Program-made: the position numbers and the translations under genes
Part shown: in pieces, positions 2,483 through 63,896 of the stretch
Layout: the number at the start of each line of letters is the position of its first letter
Position numbering within the stretch: the first letter of the stretch is position 1
From: Lysinibacillus fusiformis
Lineage (GTDB): Bacteria > Bacillota > Bacilli > Bacillales_A > Planococcaceae
Assembly: GCF_002845985.1 (NCBI RefSeq)
Contig: NZ_PDFK01000007.1
Coordinates: 62,001 to 126,000, forward strand
Length of the DNA stretch: 64,000 nucleotides
Reading direction: 5' to 3'
Notes under the pieces: model-generated
Database searches by the model: none
What the model saw: the letters and a program-made list of their open reading frames with translations, nothing else
What the model was told of the DNA's origin: nothing

Positions 2483-2490
2483 AAATTTGA

Positions 2491-3307: not shown

Positions 3308-3369
3308 TAGTAGTTTCATAGTTTCAGACACTATCCAGCATTAAAAAATGAATTTTTGGAGGGTTTATA

Positions 3370-4866: not shown

Positions 4867-5009
4867 GTACTATCCACGATGCATAGGCATAATTGTTAGC
4901 CAGTTTTTTCAAGCTTACTCGCAAGTTTCTGTGTACCTGCCGCTTCGCTTTCCATACAAAAAATTATGTCCTGAAATAAGATAAAATAGGAACGATTATA
5001 AAAGTATCG

Positions 5010-5015
5010 TATAAT
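5010..5015 (+). promoter_or_regulatory. Candidate -10 element
   Basis: TATAAT lies in the 224-bp gap before the lipoprotein gene, next to an inverted repeat (CGATTA...TATCG). No good -35 was seen. The rest of the gap shows nothing recognisable. Confidence 0.35.
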
Positions 5016-5090
5016 AGAGTCTACGACAAATTGAATAAATAGAATGGCGAAGGGATTACTCTTCCAATTAGAATAGGAGCGGAATTTGTC

Positions 5091-6080: not shown

Positions 6081-6139
6081 ATTAGCCATAAATCTTTAGT
6101 ATGTTACACTAATAAAAAAGCAGAAGTGAGTTGAGTAGA

Positions 6140-8070: not shown

Positions 8071-8085
8071 TCGTTAAATAAATTG

Positions 8086-8180
8086 AAAAGGATCTGCTTG
8101 CTTTTCACGGGTAAGCTACAAGTCTTTAAAGAGTTGTGGTCAAGCTTACTTTTTTCCGTGTTGGGTTAGGCAGATTTTTT
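8086..8180 (+). terminator. Long imperfect hairpin / terminator, copy 1 of a repeated element
   Basis: An outer stem ATCTGC...GCAGAT followed by T residues encloses inner pairings CACGG/CCGTG and GTAAGCT/AGCTTAC. It ends the D-Asp pair. The left arm (TCTGCTTGCTTTTC, then CGGGTAAGC) is nearly repeated at 48928-48954. Confidence 0.6.
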
Positions 8181-8294
8181 ATGGAAGGAATCAATGGTTT
8201 CCTGAAACGATTGGACAATAGCTTCGTACATATAAAGTAGGAAACGGCGGAGTGTGTTAAACTAGTGTCAAGTAGATAGAAGGTGGGAAATAAC

Positions 8295-9443: not shown

Positions 9444-9444
9444 T

Positions 9445-10674: not shown

Positions 10675-10705
10675 TCTTTAGTCAAAAAGAAAAGGAGGAG
10701 AGCAG

Positions 10706-11608: not shown

Positions 11609-11624
11609 ATAATCGTTAGCAAAG

Positions 11625-11652
11625 GCATCTTACCCAATAAGATGCTTTTTTT
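11625..11652 (+). terminator. Rho-independent terminator
   Basis: Stem GCATCTTA/TAAGATGC with a five-base loop and seven T, after the esterase gene. Confidence 0.85.
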
Positions 11653-11750
11653 CTATGAAAGCCAATATTGGATAGAACTACTAAACTGCTAGAGAGCACT
11701 AGAGAGGCAATAGTCATGCTAAAATAGAAAGAAGACTAGGAGGTACAACA

Positions 11751-12908: not shown

Positions 12909-15900
12909 AGCCATTAAAGTTAACGATTACTGCATTTGGTCCCTATAAAGACACTGAAGTAATTGATTTTCAAGAACTAGGGGAACATCGATTGTTTGCT
13001 ATTTCTGGTAAAACCGGTGCTGGAAAAACAACCATTTTTGATGCCATTTGTTATGCCCTTTACGGATCAGGCAGTGGTGAGGATCGTCAGGATACGGCTT
13101 TACTGCGAAGTGGCTTTGCTCATGATGATATTTATACAGCTGTAGAGCTCATGTTTGAAATGCATGGAAGGGTCTATCAAATAATACGACAGCCCGGTCA
13201 TATTAAAGAAAAAAATAAAACGATTACTGGGAAGAAAATAGAGTTAGCTGAAGTAAAAGAGGGAAAGCTTGATTATAGCATTGTAGAGAAGCAGCAAACG
13301 CTTGAAGTCGATAAAAAATTGCAGGAAATAATAGGTCTCACAAAAGATCAATTTAGCCAAATTGTGATGCTACCTCAAGGTGAATTTCGCAAGCTATTAA
13401 CCTCAGATTCTACAAACAAAGAAGTTATTTTGCGGAAAATCTTTAAAACAGACCGCTTTGGTGTCATGACGAAAAAGCTTGATGCTAAACGAAAAGAGGC
13501 AGAGAGTGATCTACAACGTGCCAAACAATTAAAAGAACATTTACTTGGTCAAATTGACGGTGTCTTACCACAACGTTCATCAGCGTTATTCACATTAATT
13601 GCTGACAAAACGGAAAATTTACATCAACTAAAGCAGGCACTTGATGAGGAGATTATTTACTATACAAAATGTATTGAGGATGAACAGCTACAATATGAAG
13701 AAGCTTATAGCCTTCATCAAAAAGAACAAGAATATTATCGATTAGCTAAAACACTGAATGAGCAATTTGATGAGCAAGCGAATCGACAGCAGCGACTACA
13801 AATGCTGTTACAAGAGCAAGACGTATACAGAGCGAAGGAGCAGGAGATTGTTTTAGCAGAACAAGCAGAGCGACTTATGCTACTTGAACAACAATGCATT
13901 GATTTACGTGCTGAACTTAATGTAAAGGAACAAGCTTTTCAGCAAGCACAAGTTAAGCATCAGCAAACAGAAGAGCAACTGCAGCGAGCCCAAGAAAAAT
14001 ATAGGGTAGAAGAGGCGAAAGAGCCTGAGCGTCAACAAATTTTGCAGCAGGAATTGCAATTATTAGCGTCATTACCTAAATTCGAGGCCTATGAAAACAA
14101 CGTGCAGCAGCTGCAAATAGCTGAGCAATATGTTGAAACAGCAAAAATGGCGGTGGCTGATAACCTGACGTTATTGGAAAAAGAACAAGAGCAATTGCAG
14201 CAATTTTCTCAAACGATGGAAGGCTATGAAAAACAGGTTGAGCCATATGAAAGCTACTTAGAACAGTTACCGAAACTACGCGAACAGGTAGCTTTAGTCA
14301 AACAAGCTGAGAAATATAAAAGTGCCGTAGAGTTAGCACAGCAGGACGTAGCTTCCTCAGACATTCACTATCAAGAAAGTAAAAAGGCCCTTCTATTATT
14401 GCAGCAACGGTGGCTGACAAGTCAGGCTAGTATTTTAGCGGAACAGCTAAAGGAAGGGGAGCCCTGCCCTGTTTGTGGCAGTATGACTCACGAGAAAACA
14501 CATAAAGAGCAACTGGAAGTTATTGAACTTGCTCAAGTGGAAACGTTAAGAGTGAAGGCTTCTTCAGACGAGCGTATGTATCTAGAGAAGGCAGCACTTT
14601 TGTCATCTACGCAACAGCTTCTTCAAGATACATATCAGCAGCTAGAAGCACAGCATATTAAACAAGAAGACCAAGCACAGCTCATCGCTACTTTACACAA
14701 GACGGAGCAAGAGATTGCGAGCTTAAAAGTTGTCCATCATCAACTAGCAGATATGCGATTAAAGCTAAAGCATCAACGTGATAGAATAGAGCAGCTTAGA
14801 AATAAACAGATGGAATTAGAGCAATATTTAGCTGAGCACATGAAAGAATGGACAAGATTACAAGCGGTTGTAGAAGAACAGCTCAAGCAGATGCCAGCCA
14901 ATTTACCAACATTACAGCAATTAAAGCAACAACTTACGGATGTTAGTAAACAGAAAATGGATTTGCAAAAAACATGGCAAGAGAGTCAAGAAAATTTGCA
15001 TGTCGTAAAAGAAGCGACAAGTAATGCAAAACTAACTGTAGAAATCGCCAAACAATCTTTTGAGGAATTACAGCTCAAAATGAATGAAAAGCGGCAGCAA
15101 TTTTCAGCAAGCATGCAGGAAATCGGCTTTGACAGCTATGAGGAATACGCAGCTGCCAAACGGAGTGCGAGCCAATTGGAGGCGCTTCGCAAAGTATGCA
15201 GTGACTATGCTTTACAGGTACATACCCTGAAAATCCAAATAACTGAAGGGGCTATGTATCTTCAAGGGAAAGAGAAGCAAGATTTAGTGATGATGGAAGC
15301 AAAAGTAGAACAACTTCGTACAGCGTATGAGGAAGCATTTAAACGTTTGCAACAGATGAATGGTTTTGCACAAGCATGCCAGGGCTTTATAAAAAAAGTG
15401 GAAGAAACAGCGAGAGAGCTTCAGTTACTTGAACAAGAAGCTGGTCGAGTAAAGGAACTCTATGGATTATTAAACGGACAAAATTCGAAAAAGCTGTCCT
15501 TTGAGCGATACATTCAAATTAATTACTTAGACCAAATTACCGATGCCGCTAATATTCGTCTTTATCACTTATCAAATGGTCAATTTGAGCTTAGACGTTC
15601 TGATAGACTAGAAAAGCATGCGAAGCAAAGTGGGCTTGGGCTTGATGTATATGATGCCTATACGGATCAATTACGTGATGTGAAAACATTATCCGGTGGC
15701 GAAAAATTTAATGCTTCCTTAAGTCTTGCTTTAGGAATGGCAGATGTCATTCAAAGCTTCCAAGGGAATATTCATATTGAAACCATGTTTATTGATGAGG
15801 GCTTTGGCTCGCTTGATGAGGAATCTTTGAATAAAGCAATTGATACATTAATTGCTTTACAGGATTCTGGTCGTATGATTGGCGTGATTTCTCATGTGCC

Positions 15901-15985
15901 TGAATTAAAATCGGCGATGCCAGCGGTCTTACATGTAGAAAAAACATTGAATGGACATAGTCAAACCCACTTTGAAGTGAAATAA
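12905..15985 (+). CDS. sbcC: Nuclease SbcCD subunit C (SMC-like ATPase)
   Basis: 1026 residues. Walker A SGKTGAGKTT lies at ~34-43. Long Gln/Glu-rich coiled coils flank the zinc-hook CPVC at ~521-524. Near the C-terminus are the ABC signature LSGGEKFNASLSLA (~927) and Walker B TMFIDEGFGSLD (~959). The head domains bind ATP and SbcD, while the hook joins two SbcC molecules or two DNA ends. Length and layout are usual for the family. It is translationally coupled to sbcD. Confidence 0.95.
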   Translation: MKPLKLTITAFGPYKDTEVIDFQELGEHRLFAISGKTGAGKTTIFDAICYALYGSGSGEDRQDTALLRSGFAHDDIYTAVELMFEMHGRVYQIIRQPGHIKEKNKTITGKKIELAEVKEGKLDYSIVEKQQTLEVDKKLQEIIGLTKDQFSQIVMLPQGEFRKLLTSDSTNKEVILRKIFKTDRFGVMTKKLDAKRKEAESDLQRAKQLKEHLLGQIDGVLPQRSSALFTLIADKTENLHQLKQALDEEIIYYTKCIEDEQLQYEEAYSLHQKEQEYYRLAKTLNEQFDEQANRQQRLQMLLQEQDVYRAKEQEIVLAEQAERLMLLEQQCIDLRAELNVKEQAFQQAQVKHQQTEEQLQRAQEKYRVEEAKEPERQQILQQELQLLASLPKFEAYENNVQQLQIAEQYVETAKMAVADNLTLLEKEQEQLQQFSQTMEGYEKQVEPYESYLEQLPKLREQVALVKQAEKYKSAVELAQQDVASSDIHYQESKKALLLLQQRWLTSQASILAEQLKEGEPCPVCGSMTHEKTHKEQLEVIELAQVETLRVKASSDERMYLEKAALLSSTQQLLQDTYQQLEAQHIKQEDQAQLIATLHKTEQEIASLKVVHHQLADMRLKLKHQRDRIEQLRNKQMELEQYLAEHMKEWTRLQAVVEEQLKQMPANLPTLQQLKQQLTDVSKQKMDLQKTWQESQENLHVVKEATSNAKLTVEIAKQSFEELQLKMNEKRQQFSASMQEIGFDSYEEYAAAKRSASQLEALRKVCSDYALQVHTLKIQITEGAMYLQGKEKQDLVMMEAKVEQLRTAYEEAFKRLQQMNGFAQACQGFIKKVEETARELQLLEQEAGRVKELYGLLNGQNSKKLSFERYIQINYLDQITDAANIRLYHLSNGQFELRRSDRLEKHAKQSGLGLDVYDAYTDQLRDVKTLSGGEKFNASLSLALGMADVIQSFQGNIHIETMFIDEGFGSLDEESLNKAIDTLIALQDSGRMIGVISHVPELKSAMPAVLHVEKTLNGHSQTHFEVK

Positions 15986-15990
15986 ATAAA

Positions 15991-16036
15991 AGGCGTATTT
16001 CCAAAACAAGGGAATACGCCTGCTGTTTATTTTTTT
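15991..16036. terminator. Bidirectional terminator
   Basis: Stem AGGCGTATT...AATACGCC behind sbcC. Its right flank overlaps the stop codon of the small minus-strand gene that converges on it, so it can also end that transcript. Confidence 0.7.
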
Positions 16037-16149
16037 CGAGGGGTGGCTGTAGGTGTTGTCCCTTTTTTTGCAGCCATTACTTTTTTCACGATAGGAATAA
16101 CAATAGGTGCTAATTTTACGGCGGTTTTCACAACATTTGATACTTTCAT
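16027..16149 (-). CDS. Small cationic protein, 40 aa
   Basis: A 41-codon frame with ATG at 16147-16149 is preceded on the minus strand by AAGGAG at ten bases. The product begins MKVSNVVKTAVKLAPIVIP, continues through KKVMAAKKG and ends in TPTATPRKK. It has about ten Lys/Arg, no acidic residue and a short amphipathic or hydrophobic middle. I do not recognise a family. It lies downstream of the DUF4870-like gene on the same strand and ends at the shared terminator, so the two may be one transcript. It could be a small DNA-, RNA- or membrane-associated peptide; translation is inferred from the binding site. Confidence 0.6.
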   Translation of the reverse strand: MKVSNVVKTAVKLAPIVIPIVKKVMAAKKGTTPTATPRKK

Positions 16150-16204
16150 TCAAAAACAGCTCCTTTTACAATTACTACTACCTGTTTCGCTTAAAAATGA
16201 AACA

Positions 16205-16528
16205 TTAACGAATAACACGAACAGCTTGAATAATATTCCATATTACAATTCCTAGTGAGACGATGGCATAAATGGCAAACGAAACGAACCAAATAATCAA
16301 CATCGTATTATTGCCTGACGTTGGATCCAAATTAAATGTAGAAAAAACAAAGACAATAAAGAACAGAATGCCGAAAACAAAAGGAATTAAATGAGAGATA
16401 AGTGCACGAATTGAATGTCTTTTTACGTCACTATCTTTCGTAATAATGTACACAATTAATGGGACGATAAAAGGGGCGAAGAAAATACTTAAATAACTAA
16501 AGGCAGATAAAATTTTTTGGTTCTCCAT
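16205..16528 (-). CDS. DUF4870-like small membrane protein
   Basis: 107 residues; ATG 16528 follows AAAGGAGGT on the minus strand. It has about three to four hydrophobic segments. The start MENQKILSAFSYLSIFFAPFI and the following KDSDVKRHSIRALISHLIP match the DUF4870 pattern (a first membrane hairpin, then a cytosolic loop with a conserved His). The function of the family is unknown. The 40-aa cationic gene follows 55 bp downstream on the same strand. Confidence 0.75.
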   Translation of the reverse strand: MENQKILSAFSYLSIFFAPFIVPLIVYIITKDSDVKRHSIRALISHLIPFVFGILFFIVFVFSTFNLDPTSGNNTMLIIWFVSFAIYAIVSLGIVIWNIIQAVRVIR

Positions 16529-51030: not shown

Positions 51031-51040
51031 TTAAATACTG

Positions 51041-51070
51041 TAGCCTTCTACTAGTTAGAAGGTTTTTTTT
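51041..51070 (+). terminator. Rho-independent terminator
   Basis: CCTTCTA/TTAGAAGG with eight T closes the peptide-transporter operon. The following ~240 bp hold a TATAAT at 51271-51276, a possible promoter of the Ter locus, and nothing else I recognise. Confidence 0.75.
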
Positions 51071-51314
51071 AGCTATTTTGCCCATCTATACGAAAGGGAA
51101 TAAAAGGAACTCTTTTACAGCAAAATCGTTTTAAAGAGTAGTAGGTAACAGGAGGGATTTTCTAAAAATAAGCGAAAATATCTTTTAGGAGCCATTAATT
51201 GAATTTTTTGTCACGTTATTTTAGACTTAAAAAGTAGAAAAATTTTATTTTAGTAGATTATTACTTACCATATAATCTTTCAGTTGAAATACATATTTGA
51301 GGAGGGTGTTAAAA

Positions 51315-51932
51315 TTGGGGATTAATTTACAAAAAGGGCAACGAGTTGATTTAACAAAAGGTAACGCAGGTTTAAATAAAATTAAAGTAGGTTTAGGGTG
51401 GGACCCTGTAGCGCAAGAGAAAAGTGGCGGCTTTTTAGGAGGTTTATTTTCTAGTAGAAATAGTGGTAGTGGCAGAAGCATAGACTGTGATGCTTCAGTC
51501 TTAATGCTGCAAGATGATAAGGTGATAGCTGGAGACGATGTTGTTTACTTTGGAAAATTAACAAGTAATTGCGGCTCTGTTCGCCATTCTGGTGATAATT
51601 TAACAGGAGACGGCGATGGCGATGATGAAGTAATTACAATTGAGCTATCGTCTGTACCAACGCAATATAACAAACTTGTGTTTGTTGTAAACATTTATGA
51701 TGCAGCAGGTCGTAATCAACATTTCGGTATGATTCAAAATGCATATATTCGTGTGTATGATGACAGGACAGGAAGCGAACTAATTCGCTATAATTTAACT
51801 GATAATTATTCGAATTTAACGACGTTAGTCTGTGGAGAAATTTACCGTCATAATAGTGACTGGAAATTTGCTGCAGTTGGTACGGGAACGAATGATATAA
51901 AACTTGGCGATGTTGTTCGAAGATATCAATAA
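51315..51932 (+). CDS. TerD-family protein, divergent copy (YceC position)
   Basis: 205 residues from TTG 51315, eight bases after AGGAGGG. It shares the TerD start (GINLQKGQRVDLTK) and the stretch [19 protein letters not shown] that carries acidic calcium-binding residues. Where its two neighbours have GGxDFDLD it instead has a Gly/Ser-rich insertion (SGGFLGGLFSSRNSGSGRS) and then IDCDASV, and its C-terminus lacks the GYQGGLAAL ending. TerD proteins are cytosolic calcium-binding stress proteins; the acidic site here looks altered. First gene of the Ter operon. Confidence 0.88.
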   Translation: MGINLQKGQRVDLTKGNAGLNKIKVGLGWDPVAQEKSGGFLGGLFSSRNSGSGRSIDCDASVLMLQDDKVIAGDDVVYFGKLTSNCGSVRHSGDNLTGDGDGDDEVITIELSSVPTQYNKLVFVVNIYDAAGRNQHFGMIQNAYIRVYDDRTGSELIRYNLTDNYSNLTTLVCGEIYRHNSDWKFAAVGTGTNDIKLGDVVRRYQ

Positions 51933-51962
51933 ATAAATGACTATATAGGAGGAATAAAGAGT

Positions 51963-52544
51963 ATGGGAATTTCACTACAAAAAGGTCAAAAGGTAGATTT
52001 AACAAAAACAAATCCAGGATTAACAAATGTTGTTGTAGGTTTAGGCTGGGATACAAATAAATATGACGGTGGTAATGATTTTGATTTAGATTCATCTGTA
52101 TTTTTACTGGCTGATACAGGCAAAGTAGCTGATCAAAATGACTTTATTTTCTACAACAATACAACAGGTGGCAATGGTTCAGTTGAACATTCGGGCGATA
52201 ATTTAACGGGTGTTGGTGAAGGTGACGATGAAGTGGTAAAAGTTGCATTAACGCAAGTGCCTGCTCATGTTCAACGATTAGCCTTCACTGTAACAATCCA
52301 TGATGCAGAGTCTCGTAGTCAGAATTTCGGAATGGTGTCTAATGCGTATATTCGTATTGTTAATGCTGCTTCCAACGAGGAAATTATCCGTTATGATTTA
52401 GGCGAGGATTTCAGTATTGAAACAGCTATCGTAGTAGGGGAATTATACCGCCATAATGGAGAATGGAAATTTAATGCAATTGGTGCTGGCTACCAAGGTG
52501 GCTTAGCTGCTTTATGTAATGATTACGGCTTAAGTGTAAACTAA
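51963..52544 (+). CDS. TerD-family calcium-binding stress protein (YceD-like)
   Basis: 193 residues after TAGGAGGA. Canonical Ter[61 protein letters not shown] and the end [11 protein letters not shown]. The two acidic stretches (DFDLD and GEGDDE) form the calcium sites known from TerD structures. TerD paralogues, with TerC, give resistance to tellurite, phage and colicins in enterobacteria and belong to envelope-stress regulons in B. subtilis. Confidence 0.92.
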
Positions 52545-52577
52545 AATTTCATCTTTGGACAGAAAGGGAGATTTTGA

Positions 52578-53153
52578 ATGGCTATTCAATTAAGTAAAGG
52601 GCAACGTATTGATTTAACCAAGCAAGACCCAGGATTAAATAGCATTGGCATTGGCTTAGGCTGGGATGTTAAGCAATTTGATGGTGGGCAAGACTTTGAC
52701 CTCGATGCATCTGTATTTTTACTAGATGCATCAGGTAAATGTCGTAATGAACAAGATTTTATCTTCTATAATAATTTAGCGAGTCTAGACCAATCTGTTG
52801 TTCATACAGGTGATAATCGTACGGGTGAAGGTGATGGGGATGATGAAAAGATTCTTGTCAACTTAAAGCAAGTATCACCTCAAATTGAAAAGATTGTGGT
52901 AACGGTTACCATCTATGATGCTGAGGGTCGTCATCAAAACTTCGGACAAGTACTAAATGCTTATGTGCGATTGACAAATGAAGATTCGGGATCAGAGGTA
53001 TTACGCTATGATTTAGGCGAAGATTTCAGTATTGAAACTGCCGTTGTATTTTGTGAGCTTTACCGTCATAATAGCGAGTGGAAATTTGCCGCAGTAGGCT
53101 CAGGCTATCAGGGTGGACTAGCAGCATTAATCAACGCATATGGCCTACAGTAA
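52578..53153 (+). CDS. TerD-family calcium-binding stress protein (YceE-like)
   Basis: 191 residues after GAAAGGGAG. Close to the preceding gene: IQLSKGQRIDLTKQDPGL, GGQDFDLDASVFLL, HTGDNRTGEGDGDDEKI, NFGQVLNAYVRL and [11 protein letters not shown]. The tandem arrangement and strong likeness point to duplication. The spacing of 33 bp and own binding site fit one operon with terC. Confidence 0.92.
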   Translation: MAIQLSKGQRIDLTKQDPGLNSIGIGLGWDVKQFDGGQDFDLDASVFLLDASGKCRNEQDFIFYNNLASLDQSVVHTGDNRTGEGDGDDEKILVNLKQVSPQIEKIVVTVTIYDAEGRHQNFGQVLNAYVRLTNEDSGSEVLRYDLGEDFSIETAVVFCELYRHNSEWKFAAVGSGYQGGLAALINAYGLQ

Positions 53154-53188
53154 CGAGTAGGGTATAGGTACATGACGGGGGATCTTCG

Positions 53189-53935
53189 GTGGATGTAATA
53201 AACGAGATATTAAATACATATGCACAGTTTTTTAACTGGCAGATGTGGGGACAAGTTTTAACAGATCCAGTATCATGGGGCCTTATTTTTTCATTGATTA
53301 TTATGGAGGGGCTATTGTCTGCAGACAATGCGCTTGTTTTAGCAGTACTTGTTAAACATCTTCCACAGCATCAGCGGAAAAAAGCGCTAATGTATGGGAT
53401 GTTTGGGGCTTATTTTTTCCGATTTCTCTTCATCGGTATTGGCGTTTACCTCGTAAAATTCTCTATTGTTAAAGTGATCGGTGCAACTTATTTAATGTGG
53501 TTAGTCATATTACATTTTAAAAATAAAAGCACTGATGAAGGAGACGCACACGAGTTTAAGAAGACAGGTTGGATGGTTCGAGTCTTTGGTACTTTCTGGG
53601 CGACTGTTATCTCAGTTGAATTAATGGATATCGCCTTTTCAGTAGACTCTATATTAGCGGCATTTGCCATATCCGATCAAGTATGGGTTCTTTTATTAGG
53701 TGGAGTTTTAGGCATTATTATGATGCGTACCATCGCTGGTGTATTTCTTTCATTGATTGAACGAGTACCAGAACTTGAAACGACTGCCTATATTTTAATT
53801 GCCATTATTGCATTGAAAATGTTTGCTAGTATTTTTGGATTCCATCTTTCACATGAAGTATTCTTTATTATTTTAATTGCTGCATTCTTATTGACGTTTA
53901 TTGTTCACAAGATGAATAAGAAAACAGCAGTGTAA
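53189..53935 (+). CDS. terC: TerC-family integral membrane protein (YceF-like)
   Basis: 248 residues from GTG 53189, after ACGGGGG. About seven membrane segments; the two conserved acidic motifs are EGLLSADNALVLAVL in helix 2 and ELMDIAFSVDSILAAFA in helix 5, thought to bind metal. Such TerC/Alx proteins export or sense metal ions (manganese for several members) and support metalation of secreted enzymes. In the Ter system TerC works with TerD proteins at the membrane. Confidence 0.9.
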   Translation: MDVINEILNTYAQFFNWQMWGQVLTDPVSWGLIFSLIIMEGLLSADNALVLAVLVKHLPQHQRKKALMYGMFGAYFFRFLFIGIGVYLVKFSIVKVIGATYLMWLVILHFKNKSTDEGDAHEFKKTGWMVRVFGTFWATVISVELMDIAFSVDSILAAFAISDQVWVLLLGGVLGIIMMRTIAGVFLSLIERVPELETTAYILIAIIALKMFASIFGFHLSHEVFFIILIAAFLLTFIVHKMNKKTAV

Positions 53936-53939
53936 ACAA

Positions 53940-53986
53940 GGCACTGTATTGGTCTGTATAGAACAGGCTGATACAGTGCTTTTTTC
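53940..53986 (+). terminator. Terminator between terC and the enzyme genes
   Basis: GCACTGTAT/ATACAGTGC with a 21-base loop and six T. It splits the locus into TerD/TerC genes and the enzyme cassette, which may be reached by read-through or have its own promoter. Confidence 0.7.
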
Positions 53987-54018
53987 ACAAAAGGCATAGT
54001 TATCGGGGAGAGGATTAG

Positions 54019-55212
54019 ATGCAACACTTTGCAACAGAAGCAGAGACGATTTTTTTTAAGAAGCCACAGCCTTTTACTAAGTGGGAAACGCCAGATATTT
54101 TATCATATGCTCTAGGTGCGACTCTGTATATGCCAGCTTCTATGCCTGCGATTGTGAGTTTGATTCAATCACAAAAATATCAAGAACTCACATCACTCGT
54201 CATTGATCTGGAGGATGCAGTAGGCGATATAGAATTACGAGATTGTGAAGCGAAGCTGATGGAGGATATTAGTGAGCTATATGCACTCTATCAACAAAAA
54301 AAATTATTACTTCAGGATCTACCATTACTTTTTATTCGTGTACGTCATGTTGAGCAATTTCAAAGGTTAACAACTATTTTAGGGAAAAAGCAAGAAATAC
54401 TAGCGGGCTATGTATTTCCAAAGTTTACAGCAGCACAGGGCGCCCGTTATTTTGAGCTTCTTGAACAAACAATTTTAGAAAATGACTTAATTCTATATGG
54501 TATGCCGATTTTAGAGAGCCGTGAGGTGCTATATAAGGAATCTCGCATGGAAGCATTATTAGACATTAAGGCAGTGCTACATCAATACAGAGCTCGTGTA
54601 TTAAATGTACGTATTGGTGCCACTGATTTCTGTGGCATTTATGGAATTCGTCGTCGTATGGACTCGACCATTTATGATATCAGTGTGATCCGTGATTGTA
54701 TTGCAGATATTGTCAACGTCCTTGGTCGTGAGGAAGATGGGTTTGTTATCTCGGGGCCTGTGTGGGAGTATTTTAGTAATCAGCGTGTATTAAAGCCTGC
54801 ATTAAGAGAAACACCATTTAGTGAAAAGGGAGCTCTTGATACGAGGAAAGCATTATTAGACGATTGTTTAGATGGATTAATGAAAGAAGTGTTAATGGAT
54901 AAACAAAATGGTATTGTGGGAAAAACAATTATTCATCCTAGTCATATCCGTGTTGTTCATGCCCTCTATGCCATTTCCTATGAAGAATATTTAGATGCGC
55001 TAAGTATTGTAGAGAATAATGATGGTCGCAAAGGTGTGATGAAAAGTCACTATGCGAACAAGATGAATGAAATCAAACCACATATGAGATGGGCACAGCG
55101 AATATTAAAACAGGCACAAGTCTATGGTGTCTATCATGAATCTGTCGATTTTGCCTCACTCTTATTAAATTCAGAAATAGGTGGTAGTGTTTATGCAACA
55201 ACAAATGAGTAA
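54019..55212 (+). CDS. HpcH/HpaI aldolase/citrate-lyase-like enzyme of the Ter cassette
   Basis: 397 residues after GGGGAGAGG. The TIM-barrel lyase motifs are visible: SLVIDLEDAVGD (Asp/Glu for Mg and CoA-type substrates), YVFPKFTAAQGA, YGMPILESREVL, RIGATDFCGIYG and GKTIIHPSHI. Related enzymes cleave or form carbon-carbon bonds with pyruvate- or acyl-CoA-like substrates. Within Ter loci this aldolase-like gene usually travels with two phosphoribosyltransferase-like genes and a HAD phosphatase and is predicted to act on a sugar-phosphate or nucleoside-like product. It overlaps the next gene by 20 bases. Confidence 0.85.
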   Translation: MQHFATEAETIFFKKPQPFTKWETPDILSYALGATLYMPASMPAIVSLIQSQKYQELTSLVIDLEDAVGDIELRDCEAKLMEDISELYALYQQKKLLLQDLPLLFIRVRHVEQFQRLTTILGKKQEILAGYVFPKFTAAQGARYFELLEQTILENDLILYGMPILESREVLYKESRMEALLDIKAVLHQYRARVLNVRIGATDFCGIYGIRRRMDSTIYDISVIRDCIADIVNVLGREEDGFVISGPVWEYFSNQRVLKPALRETPFSEKGALDTRKALLDDCLDGLMKEVLMDKQNGIVGKTIIHPSHIRVVHALYAISYEEYLDALSIVENNDGRKGVMKSHYANKMNEIKPHMRWAQRILKQAQVYGVYHESVDFASLLLNSEIGGSVYATTNE

Positions 55213-56554
55213 ATTAAGCATTTTACCGGATTATTCAATCGATATTGAAATTACCCACAATCCGCATAATTTTGCGCTAACCGACTTGTTTAAAATGGCA
55301 GCTCGTATTAATAAGAAAAGGCAATTTTTGTTTGTAAGCACCGTACTTGGTAAACATTTAGCTGTGCGCCCGCAAGTGCCCTTACTGACAGGGACTCTGC
55401 TAGCCATGATGTATCATAAGCATCTTACTGGACAAAAAGTAGCAGCTTCATCAGCAGTCGTTAAAGCTTTAAAAGAGGGTGCGGGTTTGTCAGAAGTACA
55501 AAATTCTACAGAGGGTAGCCTCGAGTTAGCACAAGAAACATTGTTCGTTGGATTTGCCGAGACAGCTACTGCACTAGGACATGCGGTATTTAACGCATAC
55601 GATTCGAATGCAATGTATATTCACACAACACGTGAAGTGCTTCCCGATTTTGAACCATTTGTTACATTTGAGGAAGAACACTCCCATGCGACAAGCCATA
55701 GAATTTATACTGAGGAGCCAGAAGTGTTACTACAAGCTAAACGCATTGTGTTAATTGATGATGAGATTACTACTGGTAATACGGTTATTAATATCATTCA
55801 AACATTAAGACGGAAATTTCCGTTAGTTAAGCAGTATGCTGTGCTCTCTATTTTAGATTGGCGTTCTGAACAGCAACAAAAGATTTTTCAGCAATTAGAA
55901 GAGCAATGGGGTATTTCCATTGTGTTCATCTCAATCATGTGTGGACACTTTAACTGTTCGGGTATACCAAGCTTAACGAGCACACAGCCTAATATACTAA
56001 CACAACCTACAAATAATCTAACACTATGGCCAATTCAAGAATCTATTGATCGTAAGTTTTATCGATCTATTGCTGAGAATAAATTCGTAAATAGTCAACC
56101 CTATCTAGTAGCAACAGGGAGATTTATGCTCACGTCAAAACAGCATTTTCAACAAAAGAAAATGTTACAGACCATCGCCAAGCAATTACAAAAGCTTCGT
56201 ACACATGGTCCGGCATTAGTTATTGGAACAGGTGAGTTTATGTATGTCCCTATGCAAATTGCCTCTTATTTAGGAAACGACGTTTATTTTCAATCAACTA
56301 CTCGTAGTCCAATCTATTGTACGGATGATTTAGGATACACGATTACTGAAAAAATAGCCTTTGAAAGTCCAGAGAATAATGGCGTTGATAATTATTTATA
56401 TAATATACAAAGCCAGTCCTACACGGAACTTTTCTTTATGGTGGAACGTATAGCAAGTAAAGAGGTTGTTGCTCGTGTGGTAAATGAGTTACAAATATTA
56501 AGTAACGCCAAGGTCTACGTGATTTGTATGCATGAATGGGAGGTAGAACAATGA
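55193..56554 (+). CDS. Phosphoribosyltransferase with TRSP domain, Ter cassette
   Basis: 453 residues from ATG 55193, eight bases after ATAGGTGG; earlier GTG codons at 55181 and 55187 fall in that site. The PRPP-binding loop is IVLIDDEITTGNTVIN (~residues 186-201); upstream FAETATALGHAVF and SHRIYTEEPE are typical of this branch. The C-terminal third (IGTGEFMYVPMQIASYLG, FQSTTRSPIY) is the TRSP domain found only in Ter-type proteins. It should transfer phosphoribose to, or release it from, an unknown base. It overlaps both neighbours, so the cassette is tightly coupled. Confidence 0.85.
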   Translation: MQQQMSKLSILPDYSIDIEITHNPHNFALTDLFKMAARINKKRQFLFVSTVLGKHLAVRPQVPLLTGTLLAMMYHKHLTGQKVAASSAVVKALKEGAGLSEVQNSTEGSLELAQETLFVGFAETATALGHAVFNAYDSNAMYIHTTREVLPDFEPFVTFEEEHSHATSHRIYTEEPEVLLQAKRIVLIDDEITTGNTVINIIQTLRRKFPLVKQYAVLSILDWRSEQQQKIFQQLEEQWGISIVFISIMCGHFNCSGIPSLTSTQPNILTQPTNNLTLWPIQESIDRKFYRSIAENKFVNSQPYLVATGRFMLTSKQHFQQKKMLQTIAKQLQKLRTHGPALVIGTGEFMYVPMQIASYLGNDVYFQSTTRSPIYCTDDLGYTITEKIAFESPENNGVDNYLYNIQSQSYTELFFMVERIASKEVVARVVNELQILSNAKVYVICMHEWEVEQ

Positions 56555-57651
56555 TTTCAACTTTGCAGCCAGACAAAATGGGGAGCTATGCACCAGAGGA
56601 TGTTCTATTTTTATTGCGTGATATTGGGCAAGTTTATCTTGAACTGGATAATGAAAAACGTGAACAGCTTATTCAATCAGGCACACATTATTCTGAAATG
56701 CTACCAATGGAAAGGCAACCATCTAACACCTATATGAATCTTTTTTATAAAACGTTAGATGCGCATGCAGAGAGAATAGCCATCGCTGTTGGAGTGGTGG
56801 CAGAGCAAATCATTGAAAATAGAGGGTTAGAAAACTTAGTGCTTGTTAGTTTAGCAAGGGCAGGTACACCCATTGGCATTTTAATCAAACGGTATATAGC
56901 CATGCGATATAGGGTGAATATTCCACATTACTCTATTTCTATACTACGTGGTCGAGGGTTTGATGAGGTAGCGATCCGTTACATTTTGACACAGCATCCC
57001 CTAGGAAATCTTCAATTTATTGATGGTTGGACAGGAAAAGGGGCAATTACCAATGAATTAATCCAATCCTGTCAAAAATTTAATGCGCAACAGCCCGGAC
57101 AATTAAATGCCAATTTAGCTGTATTGGCTGATCCTGGGCATTGTGCTACCATCTATGGAACTCGTCAAGACTTTTTAATCCCGTCTGCTTGTTTAAATTC
57201 GACTGTATCTGGATTGGTGAGTAGAACGGTGTTAAATTTACAGTTCATGGATGCAAATGACTTTCATGGTGCTAAATACTACAAAGAGTTAGAAGATATG
57301 GATGTCTCTAACCTGTACATAGAACGTATCGTCACATGTTTTGAACATGTACAGAGTACGATATTGCAACAATTTCAAGAGCAGGTTATCGCTCCTATTA
57401 CTTGGGAGGGCATGAAGTCTGTGCAAAAGATTCAACGCGATTTTGGCATTGAGAATATTCATTTTATCAAACCAGGTGTAGGTGAGACGACTAGAGTGTT
57501 GCTTCGACGGTTACCATGGAAAATTTTAATTAATCCACAGTACTTGCATGAATTGGAACATATTTTATTATTAGCCAAAGAAAAAAATGTACAGGTAGAA
57601 GAATATTCGAATATGTCCTATGCATGTTGTGGCTTAATCAAAGCATTATAG
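56551..57651 (+). CDS. StiP-type protein with C-terminal PELOTA domain, Ter cassette
   Basis: 366 residues; ATG 56551 overlaps the previous stop (ATGA) and follows GGGAGGTA. The N-terminal two thirds show the StiP pattern: LVLVSLARAGTPIGILIKRY, HYSISILRGRGFDEVAI, FIDGWTGKGAITNEL and ADPGHCATIYGTRQDFLIPSA, annotated in databases as a cysteine protease related in fold to phosphoribosyltransferases. The last ~70 residues (IHFIKPGVGETTRVLLRRLP, then YACCGLIKAL) are a PELOTA-type RNA-binding domain. The DGWTGKG loop resembles a PRPP loop, so a second transferase or nucleotide-binding role is as likely as proteolysis. Confidence 0.8.
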   Translation: MISTLQPDKMGSYAPEDVLFLLRDIGQVYLELDNEKREQLIQSGTHYSEMLPMERQPSNTYMNLFYKTLDAHAERIAIAVGVVAEQIIENRGLENLVLVSLARAGTPIGILIKRYIAMRYRVNIPHYSISILRGRGFDEVAIRYILTQHPLGNLQFIDGWTGKGAITNELIQSCQKFNAQQPGQLNANLAVLADPGHCATIYGTRQDFLIPSACLNSTVSGLVSRTVLNLQFMDANDFHGAKYYKELEDMDVSNLYIERIVTCFEHVQSTILQQFQEQVIAPITWEGMKSVQKIQRDFGIENIHFIKPGVGETTRVLLRRLPWKILINPQYLHELEHILLLAKEKNVQVEEYSNMSYACCGLIKAL

Positions 57652-57662
57652 AGGAGATTATG

Positions 57663-58475
57663 ATGATACTATTTACATCGGATTTAGATAGAACGCTTAT
57701 TTATTCTCAACGTATGATGGAGAGTTTTCCACCAGTTACAGAGACAGTGGTCGTTGAACACAAGGCGGAGAAAGCAATGAGCATGATGACGCAGGCAACA
57801 GCATCTCTATTGCAACAGATACACCAACAAACAATATTTGTACCTGTTACGACTAGGGCATTACATCAATATAAAAGAATTCATTTTATTAGTGATATGT
57901 GTCCTGCTTTTGCAATTACAAGCAATGGGGGTACAATATTAGAAAAGGGCCAGCCCTCTGAAAAATGGACGAAAACACTATGTAGACGTATTGAAGATTC
58001 TTCAATCCCACGAGAGGATCTGTTAAAGCATTTTCAATCAATTAAATCCGATACATGGCTACAACGTTCTTTGTATATAGATGATCTGTTTTATGTACAC
58101 CATGTGGATCTTGAAACTTTACCACACGTGGAATTACAAGCTATGATTCAAGAGTTTGATACGTATGGCTGGTATGTTCTTTTACAAGGTAAAAAATTGT
58201 ATTTTATGCCCAAGGTACTGACGAAGGAAGCGGCTATCGAATATATGAAAGAGTTCTGTACATACGATGTGCATATAGCGGCAGGGGATTCTATTATGGA
58301 TTATGGAATGCTGGCAATGGCTGATTTAGCTTTTACACCGAATCATGGAGATTTAAAGGATAAACAGCCAAAAGTTTTACAAAATACAACTTACTCGGCT
58401 TATAATGGTGAAGCATTTACCAAAGATTTGCTAGATACGGTTTTACAGATGACTTCACAACAGACAATAGTATAA
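57663..58475 (+). CDS. HAD-family phosphatase, Ter cassette
   Basis: 270 residues from ATG 57663, six bases after GAGGAG; the ATG three bases earlier is possible. HAD motifs: SDLDRTLIYS (Asp7 nucleophile, Asp9 acid), PVTTRAL (motif II Thr) and HIAAGDSIMDYGMLAMAD (motif IV). A Cof-type cap sits between motifs II and III. Likely a sugar-phosphate or nucleotide phosphatase that finishes the product of the preceding enzymes. Confidence 0.85.
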   Translation: MILFTSDLDRTLIYSQRMMESFPPVTETVVVEHKAEKAMSMMTQATASLLQQIHQQTIFVPVTTRALHQYKRIHFISDMCPAFAITSNGGTILEKGQPSEKWTKTLCRRIEDSSIPREDLLKHFQSIKSDTWLQRSLYIDDLFYVHHVDLETLPHVELQAMIQEFDTYGWYVLLQGKKLYFMPKVLTKEAAIEYMKEFCTYDVHIAAGDSIMDYGMLAMADLAFTPNHGDLKDKQPKVLQNTTYSAYNGEAFTKDLLDTVLQMTSQQTIV

Positions 58476-58567
58476 GCTTTCAATTATTTTTGTCATAAGG
58501 TAGAGTCGTCCTATGACAAATGAATGCTTCAGCATATGCTGAGGATGATTTTAGGAGGTGCGTTTGT

Positions 58568-60199
58568 ATGCAAACAATCACAATTAAATCAGTGTTGGAG
58601 CGTCATCCTGATGATTGGCTACAGGCGTTTCAAGATTCACCAAAGGATCGTGCATTTTATGAGGAAACAGCACAACAAGTTAGTTTTAGTAGGATTGCTG
58701 TTCGTGTATTAGGTGTACCAATCGAAGAAGATGATTATTTCAATTCGTTATTTACATTGTCACAAAACGCTAATATCCATATTTTAAGTGAAGAATTAAA
58801 TAAGCATATTGAACAAAAGGATTTTCAAGCCATACAAACAATTTTATCGCAGCATCAACAAACGCCAAAAGGGCTATCTATTAATCGTCTAGTGGCGATG
58901 ATGTATGGTCATCAGTTAATACCAAAGCATGATGATGGTGTTATGAATCGCCATTTACAATTAGCGACCATTAAAGTAGTAGAACTATTTCAACAACAAC
59001 AATCGTTAGGTCTGCTAGCAAATGATTTTCGCCGATTTTTAATTGATATGGTGAAGTGGCTAAAAAACCATTGGATTATATGGACAAAATCCATGAAACC
59101 GACTGATGATTTTCCTAAAGTTGTTTGGTATGGGGAAGCCACTATAAGTCAGCGTTATTTCTTATTACTATTAATGGAGCTTGGCTGTGACGTCTTAATT
59201 TTCCATCCAGCTAAAATAGATGAATTGGCAGAGATTGACCCTACCGATACATTCTCTATCACGTACGCATATGCTAATCAAACAACTTTACAGCCATTTC
59301 CTGATAAGCTTCGTGATCGGCAGGCAACGGTAGGTTATCGCTCTAGTCAGCATTTTGAACAATTAATGCATGATCAACAATCAGGTGTCTATAAGCCTTG
59401 GCAGTTCAAAGATTTTATGCCACGTTCATTAACATTACGGATGACATATGATGATATTTTTATTTATGCAAAAGAGAAGGCTTTGGTTCGACCGCAGTTT
59501 GAAGTGATTGGAGATGAGGTAGTCATCCCAGTCATATTTGCAAAAATTAGTGGTGTTTCAAGCCAAAGAGAAGAATACTGGCAACAAATGCATCAATTAC
59601 TGGCAAGTTCGCAAACCGTTTTTGTACAGGAATTTCCTTATGCAGCAACAAGCAGAGCCAATTTTCATTTTCATTATAAGCATTGTTTAGTGAATGGGGA
59701 GCTGTCAGTAGAGCGTATTATGCAAAGTGATTGGTGGCAATATGGTGAGTTAACATTGGAGCTACAGCGTGCAATCGCCCACACGATAAAAACTTCCTGC
59801 GAGCAGCCCATGTTGAAACAACAGCCAAATGAGACTTTATATGATTTACAGTTATTTTTATTCAAACAAATGACGATGATTCCTCAGGATATCCTGCGAT
59901 TAATGCAAAGCTTTGATTATTCACAAGATGTACCCAAACTGGTATTATATCAAGCACCTCAGCAACCAGCTTTATCACGTGAGGACATGGCATTATTGGC
60001 ATTTTTAAATCGTTTTGGTATGGATATTATATTTTATAATCCGACAGGCCAACTTGACTTAGAAAAGCATTTGCAAGAGGATACATTCGATGTACATCGT
60101 TTAGAACATATGCTATTTGACTTGCCCTATGAAGAACCAAAACAGCAAAAAACTGCACCCGATAAAATCATTAAAAAACTCTTTAATCGTTTTTTCTAA
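58568..60199 (+). CDS. yceG: YceG-family protein of the Ter operon
   Basis: 543 residues from ATG 58568, after AGGAGGTG; the in-frame ATG at 58520 has no site. Recognised as YceG by length, operon position before TelA and segments such as IAVRVLGVPIEEDDYFNSLFT, WYGEATISQRYFLLLLMELG, VLIFHPAKID, DDIFIYAKEKALVRPQFEVI and LALLAFLNRFGMDIIFYNPTGQ-type ends. Two internal segments (LLLLMELGCDVLIFHP and LLAFLNRFGMDIIFYNP) look like an internal duplication. No catalytic motif is known; no membrane segment is seen. Confidence 0.8.
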   Translation: MQTITIKSVLERHPDDWLQAFQDSPKDRAFYEETAQQVSFSRIAVRVLGVPIEEDDYFNSLFTLSQNANIHILSEELNKHIEQKDFQAIQTILSQHQQTPKGLSINRLVAMMYGHQLIPKHDDGVMNRHLQLATIKVVELFQQQQSLGLLANDFRRFLIDMVKWLKNHWIIWTKSMKPTDDFPKVVWYGEATISQRYFLLLLMELGCDVLIFHPAKIDELAEIDPTDTFSITYAYANQTTLQPFPDKLRDRQATVGYRSSQHFEQLMHDQQSGVYKPWQFKDFMPRSLTLRMTYDDIFIYAKEKALVRPQFEVIGDEVVIPVIFAKISGVSSQREEYWQQMHQLLASSQTVFVQEFPYAATSRANFHFHYKHCLVNGELSVERIMQSDWWQYGELTLELQRAIAHTIKTSCEQPMLKQQPNETLYDLQLFLFKQMTMIPQDILRLMQSFDYSQDVPKLVLYQAPQQPALSREDMALLAFLNRFGMDIIFYNPTGQLDLEKHLQEDTFDVHRLEHMLFDLPYEEPKQQKTAPDKIIKKLFNRFF

Positions 60200-60221
60200 T
60201 GGCAGGAAGGAGGCGGCACGA

Positions 60222-61256
60222 ATGTCAAATATCTCGAAGACGTTGGAGCAGCTGACCTTAGAAACCGCTGACACCGTCAAAGAACAGTTGCGAGACCATG
60301 CAGAGGTACAGCAAATGGCCAATCGAATCAATATAAAAAATCAGTTAGAACTATTGGCGCTGGGGAAAGAGCCAGCGACAAAATTAGCTACATTTGCAGA
60401 TCAGATTTTAGCTATTATTACCCGCTCAACTTCCTTCGAATCAAATGAATTATTTAAGCAGCTTGAAGCCTTAATGCAGACATTCGATAAAAAAGATTTT
60501 ACTGAGCAAAAGGGCTTTTTTAAAAAGCTATTTGCACGTAAAACTAAAAATGATGAAGATTTATTTGCCAAATACAATGTACTGGGTAGAGATATTGAGA
60601 AAATTCATTATCATTTTGTGTTGATGGAAGAGGAATTAGCGAAGGATAATCGAATACTTGCACGATTATATAACGAGGACTTGATGTACTATCTTGAACT
60701 AGAAAAATATATCGTAGCTACTGATATAAAATTACATGAAGTACAAACAACATTGATTCCGATGTATGAAAAGCAGAGCGAGGCTGGTAATCAGGTGGCG
60801 AAAATGGAGCTGAATAGTTTGCAAGCAATTGCTGAAATGCTCCGACAAAAAATAGATGAATTAGAAAAATCACGTATGGTCGCCATTTTAACAGCTCCGC
60901 AAATCGAAATGCTACGTCATGGCAATAGTGAACTGATGGAACAAATTAATGGCGCTTTTGTTAAGACCATCCCTGTTTTTAAAATGGGATTAATGAATGC
61001 AGTGAATGATAGGCGACAACAATTACAAAATCAATCTGCATCAGCCTTTGAAAATCGTCTGAAGCAATTCGGAGGAGCTAGCGATGAAGCGGTGCAATTA
61101 AGCACTGCTATGGCTCAGCAATCAGGCCCAACACAGAGCCTTGAAGAAATGTGGGACATTATTGTTTCAGGTATTGAAAATTATCAGCATTTACGTGATG
61201 AGCAAACGGTAAAACGTCAGCAAGCAGAGCAACAGCTGCTAACATTGCGAAACTAA
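60222..61256 (+). CDS. telA: TelA-family toxic-anion resistance protein (YceH-like)
   Basis: 344 residues from ATG 60222, after AAGGAGG. It is all alpha-helical, with GFFKKLFARKTKNDEDLFAKY, VATDIKLHEVQTTLIPMYEKQ, LRQKIDELEKSRMVAILTAPQIEMLR and TMWDII-like EEMWDIIVSGIENY near the end, matching TelA/KlaA. TelA proteins are linked to tellurite and cell-envelope antimicrobial resistance; the mechanism is unknown. It is the last gene of the Ter locus. Confidence 0.9.
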   Translation: MSNISKTLEQLTLETADTVKEQLRDHAEVQQMANRINIKNQLELLALGKEPATKLATFADQILAIITRSTSFESNELFKQLEALMQTFDKKDFTEQKGFFKKLFARKTKNDEDLFAKYNVLGRDIEKIHYHFVLMEEELAKDNRILARLYNEDLMYYLELEKYIVATDIKLHEVQTTLIPMYEKQSEAGNQVAKMELNSLQAIAEMLRQKIDELEKSRMVAILTAPQIEMLRHGNSELMEQINGAFVKTIPVFKMGLMNAVNDRRQQLQNQSASAFENRLKQFGGASDEAVQLSTAMAQQSGPTQSLEEMWDIIVSGIENYQHLRDEQTVKRQQAEQQLLTLRN

Positions 61257-61265
61257 CACCCTTCC

Positions 61266-61298
61266 TCTAAAGTAGGTCACTACTTGGAGGATTTTTTT
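61266..61298 (+). terminator. Rho-independent terminator
   Basis: CCTCTAAAGTAG/CTACTTGGAGG (one mismatch) with seven T closes the Ter locus. Confidence 0.8.
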
Positions 61299-61308
61299 GT
61301 ATAGTAAA

Positions 61309-62609: not shown

Positions 62610-63896
62610 TTACAATTGAGAAAACGCAGTATCTACGGCTTTAATAGTTTCAAGAATATCTGCTTCCGTATGCTCAGTTGTTAAGAACCACGCTTCATAT
62701 TTAGAAGGAGCTAGATTGATACCTTGCTCAAGCATCAATTTAAAGAAACGACCAAAGATTTCACCGTCAGAGTTTTCAGCTTGGTCGTAGTTTTCTACTT
62801 TCACATCTGTAAAGTAAATCGTTAGTGCCCCTTTGAGGCGATTTAATGTGATGGTTACGCCATGCTTCTTGGCAGCAGCTAAAATACCCTCTTCTAGAAT
62901 TCCACCTAATCGATCCATTTCATCGTAAATACCTGGTGTTTGTAGCACTTCTAGGCAGGCAATCCCTGCTTGCATAGAGGCAGGGTTTCCAGCCATCGTA
63001 CCTGCTTGATATGCAGGGCCGAGGGGGGCAACTGTATCCATAATTTCTTTACGACCACCGTATGCTCCGATTGGTAAGCCACCGCCAATAACTTTACCCA
63101 GTGCTGTTAGATCAGGTGTTAGACCGAGTAAATTTTGAGCACCACCATAGTGGAAGCGGAAGGCTGTGATGACTTCATCGTAAATCGTTAAAGCACCTTT
63201 TTCTTTTGCTGTCGCATGTACTAATTCAAGGAAACCTGGGTTTGGTTCCACAATACCGAAGTTGCCTACGATTGGTTCAATTAAGATCGCTGCAATTTCC
63301 TCGCCCCATTTATTCATAGCTTCTGTAAAGGCTTCAGGGCTATTGAAAGGTACCGTAATAACTTCTTCAGCAGTCGAAGTTGTTACACCTGCTGAATCAG
63401 GCGTTCCTAATGTAGCTGGGCCAGAACCGGCAGCTACTAATACTAAATCGAAGTGACCGTGGTAGCAACCAGCAAATTTCATGATTTTTGTTCGGCCTGT
63501 ATAGGCGCGTGCAACACGAATAGTTGTCATAACAGCCTCAGTACCAGAGTTGTTAAAACGCACTTTGTCCATAGATGGGATGGCTTCTTTTAGCATTTTT
63601 GCGAAAGTAACCTCATATTCAGTTGGCGTTCCAAACAATGTACCATTTTCAGCTGCATGTGTAATGGCCTTTGCAATATGAGGATGGCCATGACCAGTAA
63701 CGATTGGTCCATATGCTGCTAGATAGTCGATATAACGATTGCCATCTACATCCCAAAAATAAGCGCCTTTTCCTCGAGCCATTGCCACAGGAGAACCGCC
63801 ACCTACTGCTTTATATGAACGAGAAGGGCTGTTTACACCACCCACGATATGCTGTATAGCCTCTGCATGTATTGCTTCAGATTTTGCGTGATTCAT
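62610..63896 (-). CDS. gsaB: Glutamate-1-semialdehyde 2,1-aminomutase (GsaB/HemL)
   Basis: 428 residues, full length, GTTAGGAGG before ATG 63896. Class III PLP aminotransferase fold: [16 protein letters not shown] at the N-terminus, [17 protein letters not shown] (PLP phosphate), [14 protein letters not shown] and the PLP lysine Lys268 in ALGKVIGGG. It converts glutamate-1-semialdehyde to 5-aminolevulinate for haem. Since it is next to ygaE and not in a hemAXCDBL cluster, it is the Bacillus second copy, GsaB. The last ~100 bases of the window show no gene. Confidence 0.93.

Follow-up and report, generated by a model that had tools for sequence, protein, structure and literature searches.

The window analysed here is a 64,000-nucleotide stretch of the Lysinibacillus fusiformis contig NZ_PDFK01000007.1 (positions 62,001 to 126,000). 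Its positions 51315-61256 are filled by ten intact open reading frames, all on the forward strand, which make up a Ter stress locus: three TerD proteins, TerC, a lyase, a PRTase_2-TRSP protein (PRTase, phosphoribosyltransferase), a StiP-PELOTA protein, a HAD phosphatase, YceG and TelA. We consider it likely that the four genes from the lyase to the phosphatase form one conserved biosynthetic module of the Ter system, which consumes 5-phosphoribosyl pyrophosphate (PRPP) and supplies a riboside as a ligand or signal for TerD and TerC. The proposal builds on computed gene identities, co-inheritance and gene order, the fusion of PRTase and StiP in some loci, the predicted PRTase fold of StiP, a repeat within PRTase_2-TRSP and the family membership of the HAD protein. 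From these we infer PRPP use by StiP and a succession of steps in which the CitE-like lyase, where present (joined by an ATP-grasp ligase in some lineages), would prepare or trim an acceptor, PRTase_2-TRSP and StiP-PELOTA would jointly move the 5-phosphoribosyl group from PRPP onto it, and the HAD enzyme would strip the 5-phosphate. The riboside so formed would act as a ligand or signal for TerD/TerC proteins at the membrane.

The cassette enzymes are inherited with TerD

One set of 299 Bacillota genomes, in which the 4.58 Mb assembly bearing the window is labelled G000, was searched for each protein in turn, with matches spread over ten families. StiP occurs in 15 of the 299 genomes, and PRTase_2 scores over its cut-off in the identical 15. 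TerD is present in all of them, plus in G066 as a broken fragment holding a stop; the nesting of StiP within the TerD genomes (15 inside 16) has a hypergeometric p of 2e-24, with genomes treated as independent though they are related. A profile of cassette HAD proteins that takes in gammaproteobacterial and phage members, applied to at most eight candidates per genome, matched 14 genomes at E<=1e-10, every one within the 15. The lyase passed E<1e-90 in all but one of the 15 StiP genomes (14) and in one other genome (G095), and YceG was found in ten genomes, all inside the 15. Weaker, generic matches comprise PRTase_2 below its cut-off in 62 further genomes and lyase-family proteins in 40 genomes besides the 14 with StiP, one of them strong (G095) and 39 weak. 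A housekeeping role was rejected, as StiP, PRTase_2 over its cut-off and the HAD (E<=1e-10) are confined to TerD-bearing genomes of the set; profile searches placed none of the enzymes in a housekeeping pathway, in keeping with an earlier note on this DNA.

The fifteenth genome, G189, carries a divergent PRTase-StiP-HAD-TerD row without a lyase. Because neither G189 nor Acinetobacter phage vB_AbaM_ME3 (phage ME3) has a detected lyase, we take PRTase, StiP and HAD to be the core; the lyase is a frequent partner of this core and the ATP-grasp an optional one. The four enzymes described earlier as coupled are indeed tightly coupled, but the lyase is not essential to the set. The strong lyase match in G095 is a stand-alone PF15617 gene (locus L093, 1847-13397) in a row with genes for an ATP-grasp, PrpD, an aldo-keto reductase, a thiamine pyrophosphate (TPP) enzyme, a fumarase, a DegT aminotransferase, a nucleotidyltransferase and a GDP-mannose dehydratase, so the lyase family is found in sugar-type clusters too.

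Gene order and fusion across related loci

At the level of loci we compared the best 80 of 593 relatives, a sample weighted towards Bacillota. StiP is present in 80 of them, HAD in 79, PRTase in 77, TerD and the lyase in 75 each, TerC in 58, YceG in 39, TelA in 38 and the ATP-grasp in 21; combining tblastn with profiles brought the lyase to 76 and TerC to 59 and left TerD unchanged. The TelA count refers to a profile built on the window-type protein and becomes 50 if all members of a second TelA-type cluster (12 loci), which escapes that profile, are included. This divergent second type (L146, 13797-14897, and 11 other loci) occurs in Paenibacillus-type loci, on the downstream side of the cassette, and its representative is a TelA by Pfam. 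The co-inheritance with terD and telA that had been proposed is borne out for TerD, in loci and genomes alike, and is looser for TelA, as it is for YceG.

The order lyase-PRTase-StiP-HAD is kept in 74 of the 80 loci (69 plain, five with a split or doubled match), and a contig end on one side cuts four of the six loci without the full order and four of the five without TerD. A single reading frame encodes both PRTase and StiP in 13 of the 77 loci that have the two, including loci of streptomycetes, Pelosinus, Alkaliphilus and one Lysinibacillus metagenome-assembled genome; this fusion is good evidence that the two proteins act together. The window itself shows the gene contacts reported for it: lyase and PRTase overlap by about 20 nt (with the PRTase start taken as ATG 55193; GTG 55181 is also possible), PRTase and StiP overlap by 4 nt, and the HAD gene follows StiP after 11 nt. 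This spacing is too tight for any terminator-type break between the four enzyme genes. Among the named loci of the best 80 of 593, the StiP closest to that of the window comes from L. fusiformis (81% identity).

StiP is predicted to have a phosphoribosyltransferase fold

StiP, annotated as a "cysteine protease", is confidently predicted to adopt a PRTase fold. Its AlphaFold model (predicted local distance difference test score, pLDDT, 93.9) has PyrR as best Foldseek match (E 1.2e-5), and all 46 matches with E<=1e-3 belong to PyrR or HGPRT, counting as HGPRT some 4ra- entries with truncated titles. Over 18 StiP sequences 27 residues are invariant, eight of which fall in two PRTase loops: R103, A104 and G105 in an RAG loop, and D158, G159, W160, G162 and G164 in a FIDGWTGKG loop (DGWTGKG at 158-164) with one acid, as against the two acidic residues followed by TG in the PRPP loop of type I phosphoribosyltransferases. 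Searched against the PDB, the StiP sequence gave nothing significant (best 1ufr, a PyrR, at E 1.1, a hint at most), and the StiP profile gave weak matches, led by 40S S12 at 0.12 and followed by L24 and L7Ae proteins. Judged by sequence, the second domain is PELOTA/L7Ae-like, of the RNA-binding type.

If the Pfam and NCBI name were right, StiP would be a cysteine protease and the operon a stress proteolysis unit. Conservation lends this some colour, with Cys214 kept in 58 of 60 mostly Bacillota and Actinobacteria sequences and His46, His126 and His239 in all 60. We nevertheless regard it as very improbable: the predicted fold is that of a PRTase, at high confidence, and no invariant catalytic cysteine exists, Cys214 being present in 15 of the 18 sequences but not in those from Escherichia, G189 and phage ME3.

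TRSP looks like a degenerate PRTase repeat

The PRTase_2 domain keeps an intact PRPP-loop motif, VLIDDEITTGNT, and residues ~24-252 of the PRTase_2-TRSP model (pLDDT 94.0) match APRT and XPRT in Foldseek. TRSP itself aligns with the PRTase portion of its own protein at an hhalign probability of 78.6 (E 1.7e-5), the other 14 pairs reaching at most 1.9. With 18 diverse rows the probability is 85.4 (E 5.8e-6), and it is 61.6 (E 7.8e-5) when the row sets have nothing but the window sequence in common. In this alignment GFAET pairs with GTGEF and HTTRE with STTRS, and the DDE PRPP loop lies opposite a degenerate stretch. In our reading TRSP is a degenerate copy of the PRTase domain, one that may serve as a built-in second subunit.

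The phosphatase belongs to a family with solved structures

Family models describe the HAD protein of the window poorly: Pfam gives a weak Hydrolase_3 match (4.7e-4, slightly under the cut-off), and NCBIfam gives the SPP subfamily (3.5e-7) and HAD-IIB (2e-4), both under their cut-offs. Its catalytic motifs are invariant in 16 cassette HAD proteins (D7, D9, T11, T63, K188, G208 D209 S210 and D213), and a profile of these 16 matches the PDB entries 6D3V and 6CJ0, named "trehalose phosphatase", at 7.6e-37 over nearly the whole length. The ter locus of the Pseudomonas aeruginosa plasmid p12939-PER has a HAD gene between PRTase and StiP, annotated as trehalose-6-phosphatase. The encoded protein is about 92% identical to 6D3V (231/251 residues, by hand count on the alignment) and 24% identical to the window HAD in a direct BLASTP comparison (E 5e-10). 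We take 6D3V and 6CJ0 to be the P. aeruginosa enzymes of Cross's 2018 work in FASEB J, consistent with the plasmid match; these are said to hydrolyse trehalose-6-phosphate (T6P) specifically. The plasmid protein has cysteines at positions 85, 231 and 239. PMC6838324 reports assayed phosphatase activity for an extrachromosomal P. aeruginosa T6P phosphatase and names Cys85 and Cys231; from the agreement in cysteine positions and in sequence, the assayed protein appears to be the ter-cassette HAD. It is therefore very probable that solved structures and an activity measurement already exist, under a different name, for the phosphatase step of Ter. The earlier statement that the substrates of these enzymes are unproven needs a qualifier to that extent, and a phosphatase family with crystal structures and assays makes the product of the cassette testable.

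Should T6P be the substrate, as the names of 6D3V and 6CJ0 and the activity reported in PMC6838324 would suggest, the cassette would feed osmoprotectant metabolism. We find this highly doubtful. Trehalose-6-phosphate synthase (PF00982) is absent from 14 of the 15 cassette genomes, G000 included, which makes T6P an unlikely native substrate in Bacillota and another sugar phosphate likelier, although T6P obtained via sugar uptake is still conceivable; moreover, the cassette holds no trehalose gene, and two PRTases would be left without a role. OtsB (PF02358) gave no match at 0.01 for the HAD of the window or of the P. aeruginosa plasmid, and for that of E. marmotae a single match below the threshold (16.1 of 27 bits).

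What the module may make

A Ter pathway for a nucleoside signal was predicted by Anantharaman, Iyer and Aravind in 2012, as cited in PMC7824862 and PMC8115787, which support the attribution made in the earlier note. The model is restated, with phage ME3 named, in PMC7824862 (2021), and PMC8115787 calls the way in which TerC and the cassette interact unclear. The idea of a nucleoside signal is not new, the prediction being already in print. With the phosphatase step tied to a family that has crystal structures and assays, StiP read as a PRTase and TRSP as a repeat of PRTase type, the prediction gains concrete enzymes, active sites and assays by which it can be put to the test. A limited literature search found no paper tying the P. 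aeruginosa trehalose phosphatase to Ter, and in the literature searched we did not find the HAD-trehalose phosphatase tie, the StiP fold, the TRSP repeat, the PRTase-StiP fusion and a terminator before the lyase gene brought together.

The published nucleoside model is a special case of the riboside module proposed here: one or both PRTases would turn an unusual base into its N- or C-linked nucleotide, which the HAD would convert into a nucleoside signal. Foldseek places nucleobase PRTases nearest in fold (PyrR/HGPRT in the case of StiP, APRT in that of PRTase_2), and PMC7824862 gives this as the Ter model; such likeness, however, does not settle what the acceptor is, and the HAD family points rather to sugar phosphates of the kind that sucrose/trehalose phosphatases act on. 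We put a nucleoside at slightly short of an even chance. Besides the "nucleoside-like" product of the earlier note, at least one other class of product would fit. Following the example of CriT (PRTase fold) and CrpP (HAD) in the Bcs3 capsule system, the 5-phosphoribosyl group of PRPP could instead pass to a hydroxyl acceptor and be dephosphorylated to a disaccharide-like ribofuranoside, a tentative alternative that we rate as rather unlikely. Somewhat less probable still is its fullest form, in which no nucleoside is made: an O-linked ribofuranoside would be the signal or protectant, the PRTase-fold pair a PRPP glycosyltransferase complex with TRSP as pseudo-subunit, the HAD its 5-phosphatase, and the P. 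aeruginosa "trehalose phosphatase" the same family acting on a substitute substrate.

It is improbable, in our estimate, that the module makes no signal and serves instead, during stress, to degrade or salvage damaged nucleotides or products of ADP-ribose. Macro-domain and ADP-ribosylglycohydrolase genes adjoin the cassette in one viral-collection contig (L179), and in phage ME3 an NAD synthetase and a macro-domain protein lie 5 to 7 kb from it, but these are two cases only, and no such family appeared among the ten searched of 26 neighbour clusters.

Several observations weigh against a PRPP-consuming module that serves TerD and TerC. The PRPP loop of StiP is shorter than the canonical one, with DG instead of the DD of PRTases, so that StiP could be a binding rather than a catalytic PRTase, a regulator in the manner of PyrR, and StiP and PRTase_2 profiles have no detectable similarity (hhalign probability 0.5). 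The HAD relatives bear the name trehalose phosphatase. The Bacillus subtilis control has TerD and YceG and no StiP, which suggests that Ter is able to work without the cassette. Conversely, TerD went undetected across the 21 kb of L179 despite its cassette, and two loci (L103 and L118) have StiP-HAD with no lyase or PRTase detected, which a contig end does not explain.

Layout and transcription of the locus

Coordinates are given in Table 1. Open reading frames and Pfam matches bore out the ten-gene locus with an enzyme cassette that had been described from the letters alone. TerD paralogue 1 differs from paralogues 2 and 3 by an insertion rich in glycine and serine and by IDCD where the other two have DFDLD, and the lyase family profile matches citrate lyase-type structures (top 3qll, 9.3e-8).

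Table 1. Genes of the Ter locus and intrinsic terminators within and around it
Feature	Position	Strand	Basis
Intrinsic terminator upstream of locus	51036..51072	+	hairpin -9.7 kcal/mol then T run; 5/200 shuffles as good
TerD paralogue 1	51315..51932	+	PF02342 8e-69; TTG start; 205 aa
TerD paralogue 2	51963..52544	+	PF02342 4e-86
TerD paralogue 3	52578..53153	+	PF02342 3.5e-83
TerC family membrane protein, YkoY subfamily	53189..53935	+	PF03741 3e-51; TIGR03716 3.6e-73, over cut-off
Intrinsic terminator terC/lyase	53938..53988	+	20-bp stem + T run, -29.4 kcal/mol, z -7.4, 0/200 shuffles
CitE/HpcH-like TIM-barrel C-C bond lyase	54019..55212	+	C-C_Bond_Lyase PF15617 1.2e-123
PRTase_2-TRSP	55193..56554	+	PRTase_2 PF15609 8.7e-71; TRSP PF12500 2.2e-38
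StiP-PELOTA	56551..57651	+	StiP PF11202 2.3e-104; PELOTA_1 PF15608 1.6e-33
HAD-IIB sugar-phosphate-type phosphatase	57663..58475	+	profile match 7.6e-37 to 6D3V/6CJ0
YceG (YceG_bac, two matched stretches)	58568..60199	+	PF14266 1.3e-104
TelA	60222..61256	+	PF05816 9e-55
Terminator after TelA	61263..61300	+	hairpin -15.3 kcal/mol then T run; 1/200 shuffles as good

A very strong terminator lies in the 83 nt that separate terC from the lyase gene; a separate hairpin-plus-T scan also found it unmatched (0/60 shuffles as good), and it can be made out in L099 and L100, which are close relatives. Its position makes it unlikely that terDC and the cassette form one simple transcript. The cassette, described earlier as embedded in the locus, is so by position and not in the sense of a shared simple transcript, and its dose or timing in this genome is probably set apart from that of TerD and TerC. 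We surveyed 54 loci, window included, in which terC as a family directly precedes the lyase: six gaps are shorter than 30 nt, one was skipped as too long and 47 were scored. A hairpin-plus-T signal reached by at most 3 of 60 shuffles was found in 31 of the 47, against about three expected by chance, and not in the other 16; the 31 are not independent cases, as the loci are related and some nearly identical. The enzymes look insulated from terDC in many Bacilli, and terC and the lyase abut in a few others.

A terminator scan found six terminators against 5.4 expected; it picked up the upstream terminator (51036..51072) and not the terC hairpin. A promoter scan, with 45 sites where 39.3 would be expected, was not used. 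A manganese riboswitch (yybP-ykoY) at terC was rejected, there being no Rfam match at that place; the sole Rfam match in the window is a TPP riboswitch (RF00059, 16656-16763, forward strand, 65.5 bits). The gene before the upstream terminator reads by eye as an oligopeptide-transport permease, and downstream of the locus a reverse-strand frame (62610-63896) was named by eye as glutamate-1-semialdehyde aminotransferase-like.

A defence-system reading of the locus was dropped: PADLOC anti-phage models, run on eight of the ten proteins, gave weak PRTase_III-A matches to the PRTase (best 5e-6) and nothing else.

Genes around related cassettes

With a threshold of five or more of 83 loci per family, the neighbour survey listed 26 clusters; representatives of ten of them were searched, and two of these had no Pfam match. 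Clusters near the cassette include a P-type cation ATPase (seven loci, for example L125, 4653-7385) and an AIM24 protein (nine loci, for example L110, 4961-5641), and an Alkaliphilus plasmid annotation likewise lists P-type cation ATPase and AIM24 genes. In L118 (9953-12988, Paenibacillus oenotherae) a StiP-HAD-ATP-grasp row lies near a contig end, and the 10 kb upstream hold no PRTase, lyase or TerD. Contig L179 (IMGVR_UViG_3300019373_000210, 613-16366) carries lyase-PRTase-StiP-HAD-ATP-grasp; further neighbours there are FtsK, VWA and a papain-fold toxin of the glutamine-deamidase type, besides the macro-domain and ADP-ribosylglycohydrolase genes. The record MT836648.1 (L098, 6092-14804), labelled Bacteriophage sp., has PRTase, StiP, an opposite-strand lyase, YceG, TelA and three TerD genes, and may be bacterial DNA instead of phage.

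Comparison with known systems

The locus is an ordinary member of the Ter-with-cassette kind: TerD and TerC are present, and PRTase_2-TRSP, StiP-PELOTA and HAD are adjacent. Bacillus subtilis shares TerD and YceG homologues with it, in a set of Ter-like genes that are presumably yceC-H, but has no StiP. The jumbo phage ME3 has PRTase_2, HAD and StiP beside TerD and a TerC-like protein, as in the window, but no lyase was found in the 29 kb read.

Closest in content are the Ter clusters of enterobacterial and Pseudomonas plasmids (E. marmotae, P. aeruginosa), where the same four families, plus an ATP-grasp, stand beside TerC/TerD. Their order is ATP-grasp-PRTase-HAD-StiP-lyase, as against lyase-PRTase-StiP-HAD here, and they carry the ATP-grasp and TerW/TerY-type genes, whereas the window has YceG and its genome gave no strong match to a Ter-type ATP-grasp (PF15632; best 9.9e-10, within a 1072-aa frame). 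Relatives of StiP are found on 2567 of 72,556 plasmid records. Among 5426 complete E. coli genomes the cassette is present in 954 and terDC in 1010, counted separately; with the cassette in about a sixth of them, a prediction open since 2012 concerns widespread enzymes.

The P. aeruginosa structures 6D3V, 6D3W and 6CJ0 share the HAD family with the window enzyme, which is only distantly related to their plasmid near-twin at the identity given above. The predicted fold of StiP is that of PyrR/HGPRT, from which it differs by its loop and its PELOTA domain, and PRTase_2 has the fold of APRT/XPRT, from which it differs by TRSP. CriT/CrpP of the capsule polymerase Bcs3, a ribofuranosyltransferase with a phosphatase, showed no sequence relation to the cassette but likewise joins a PRTase fold to a HAD phosphatase, PRPP being its donor and the presumed one of the cassette.

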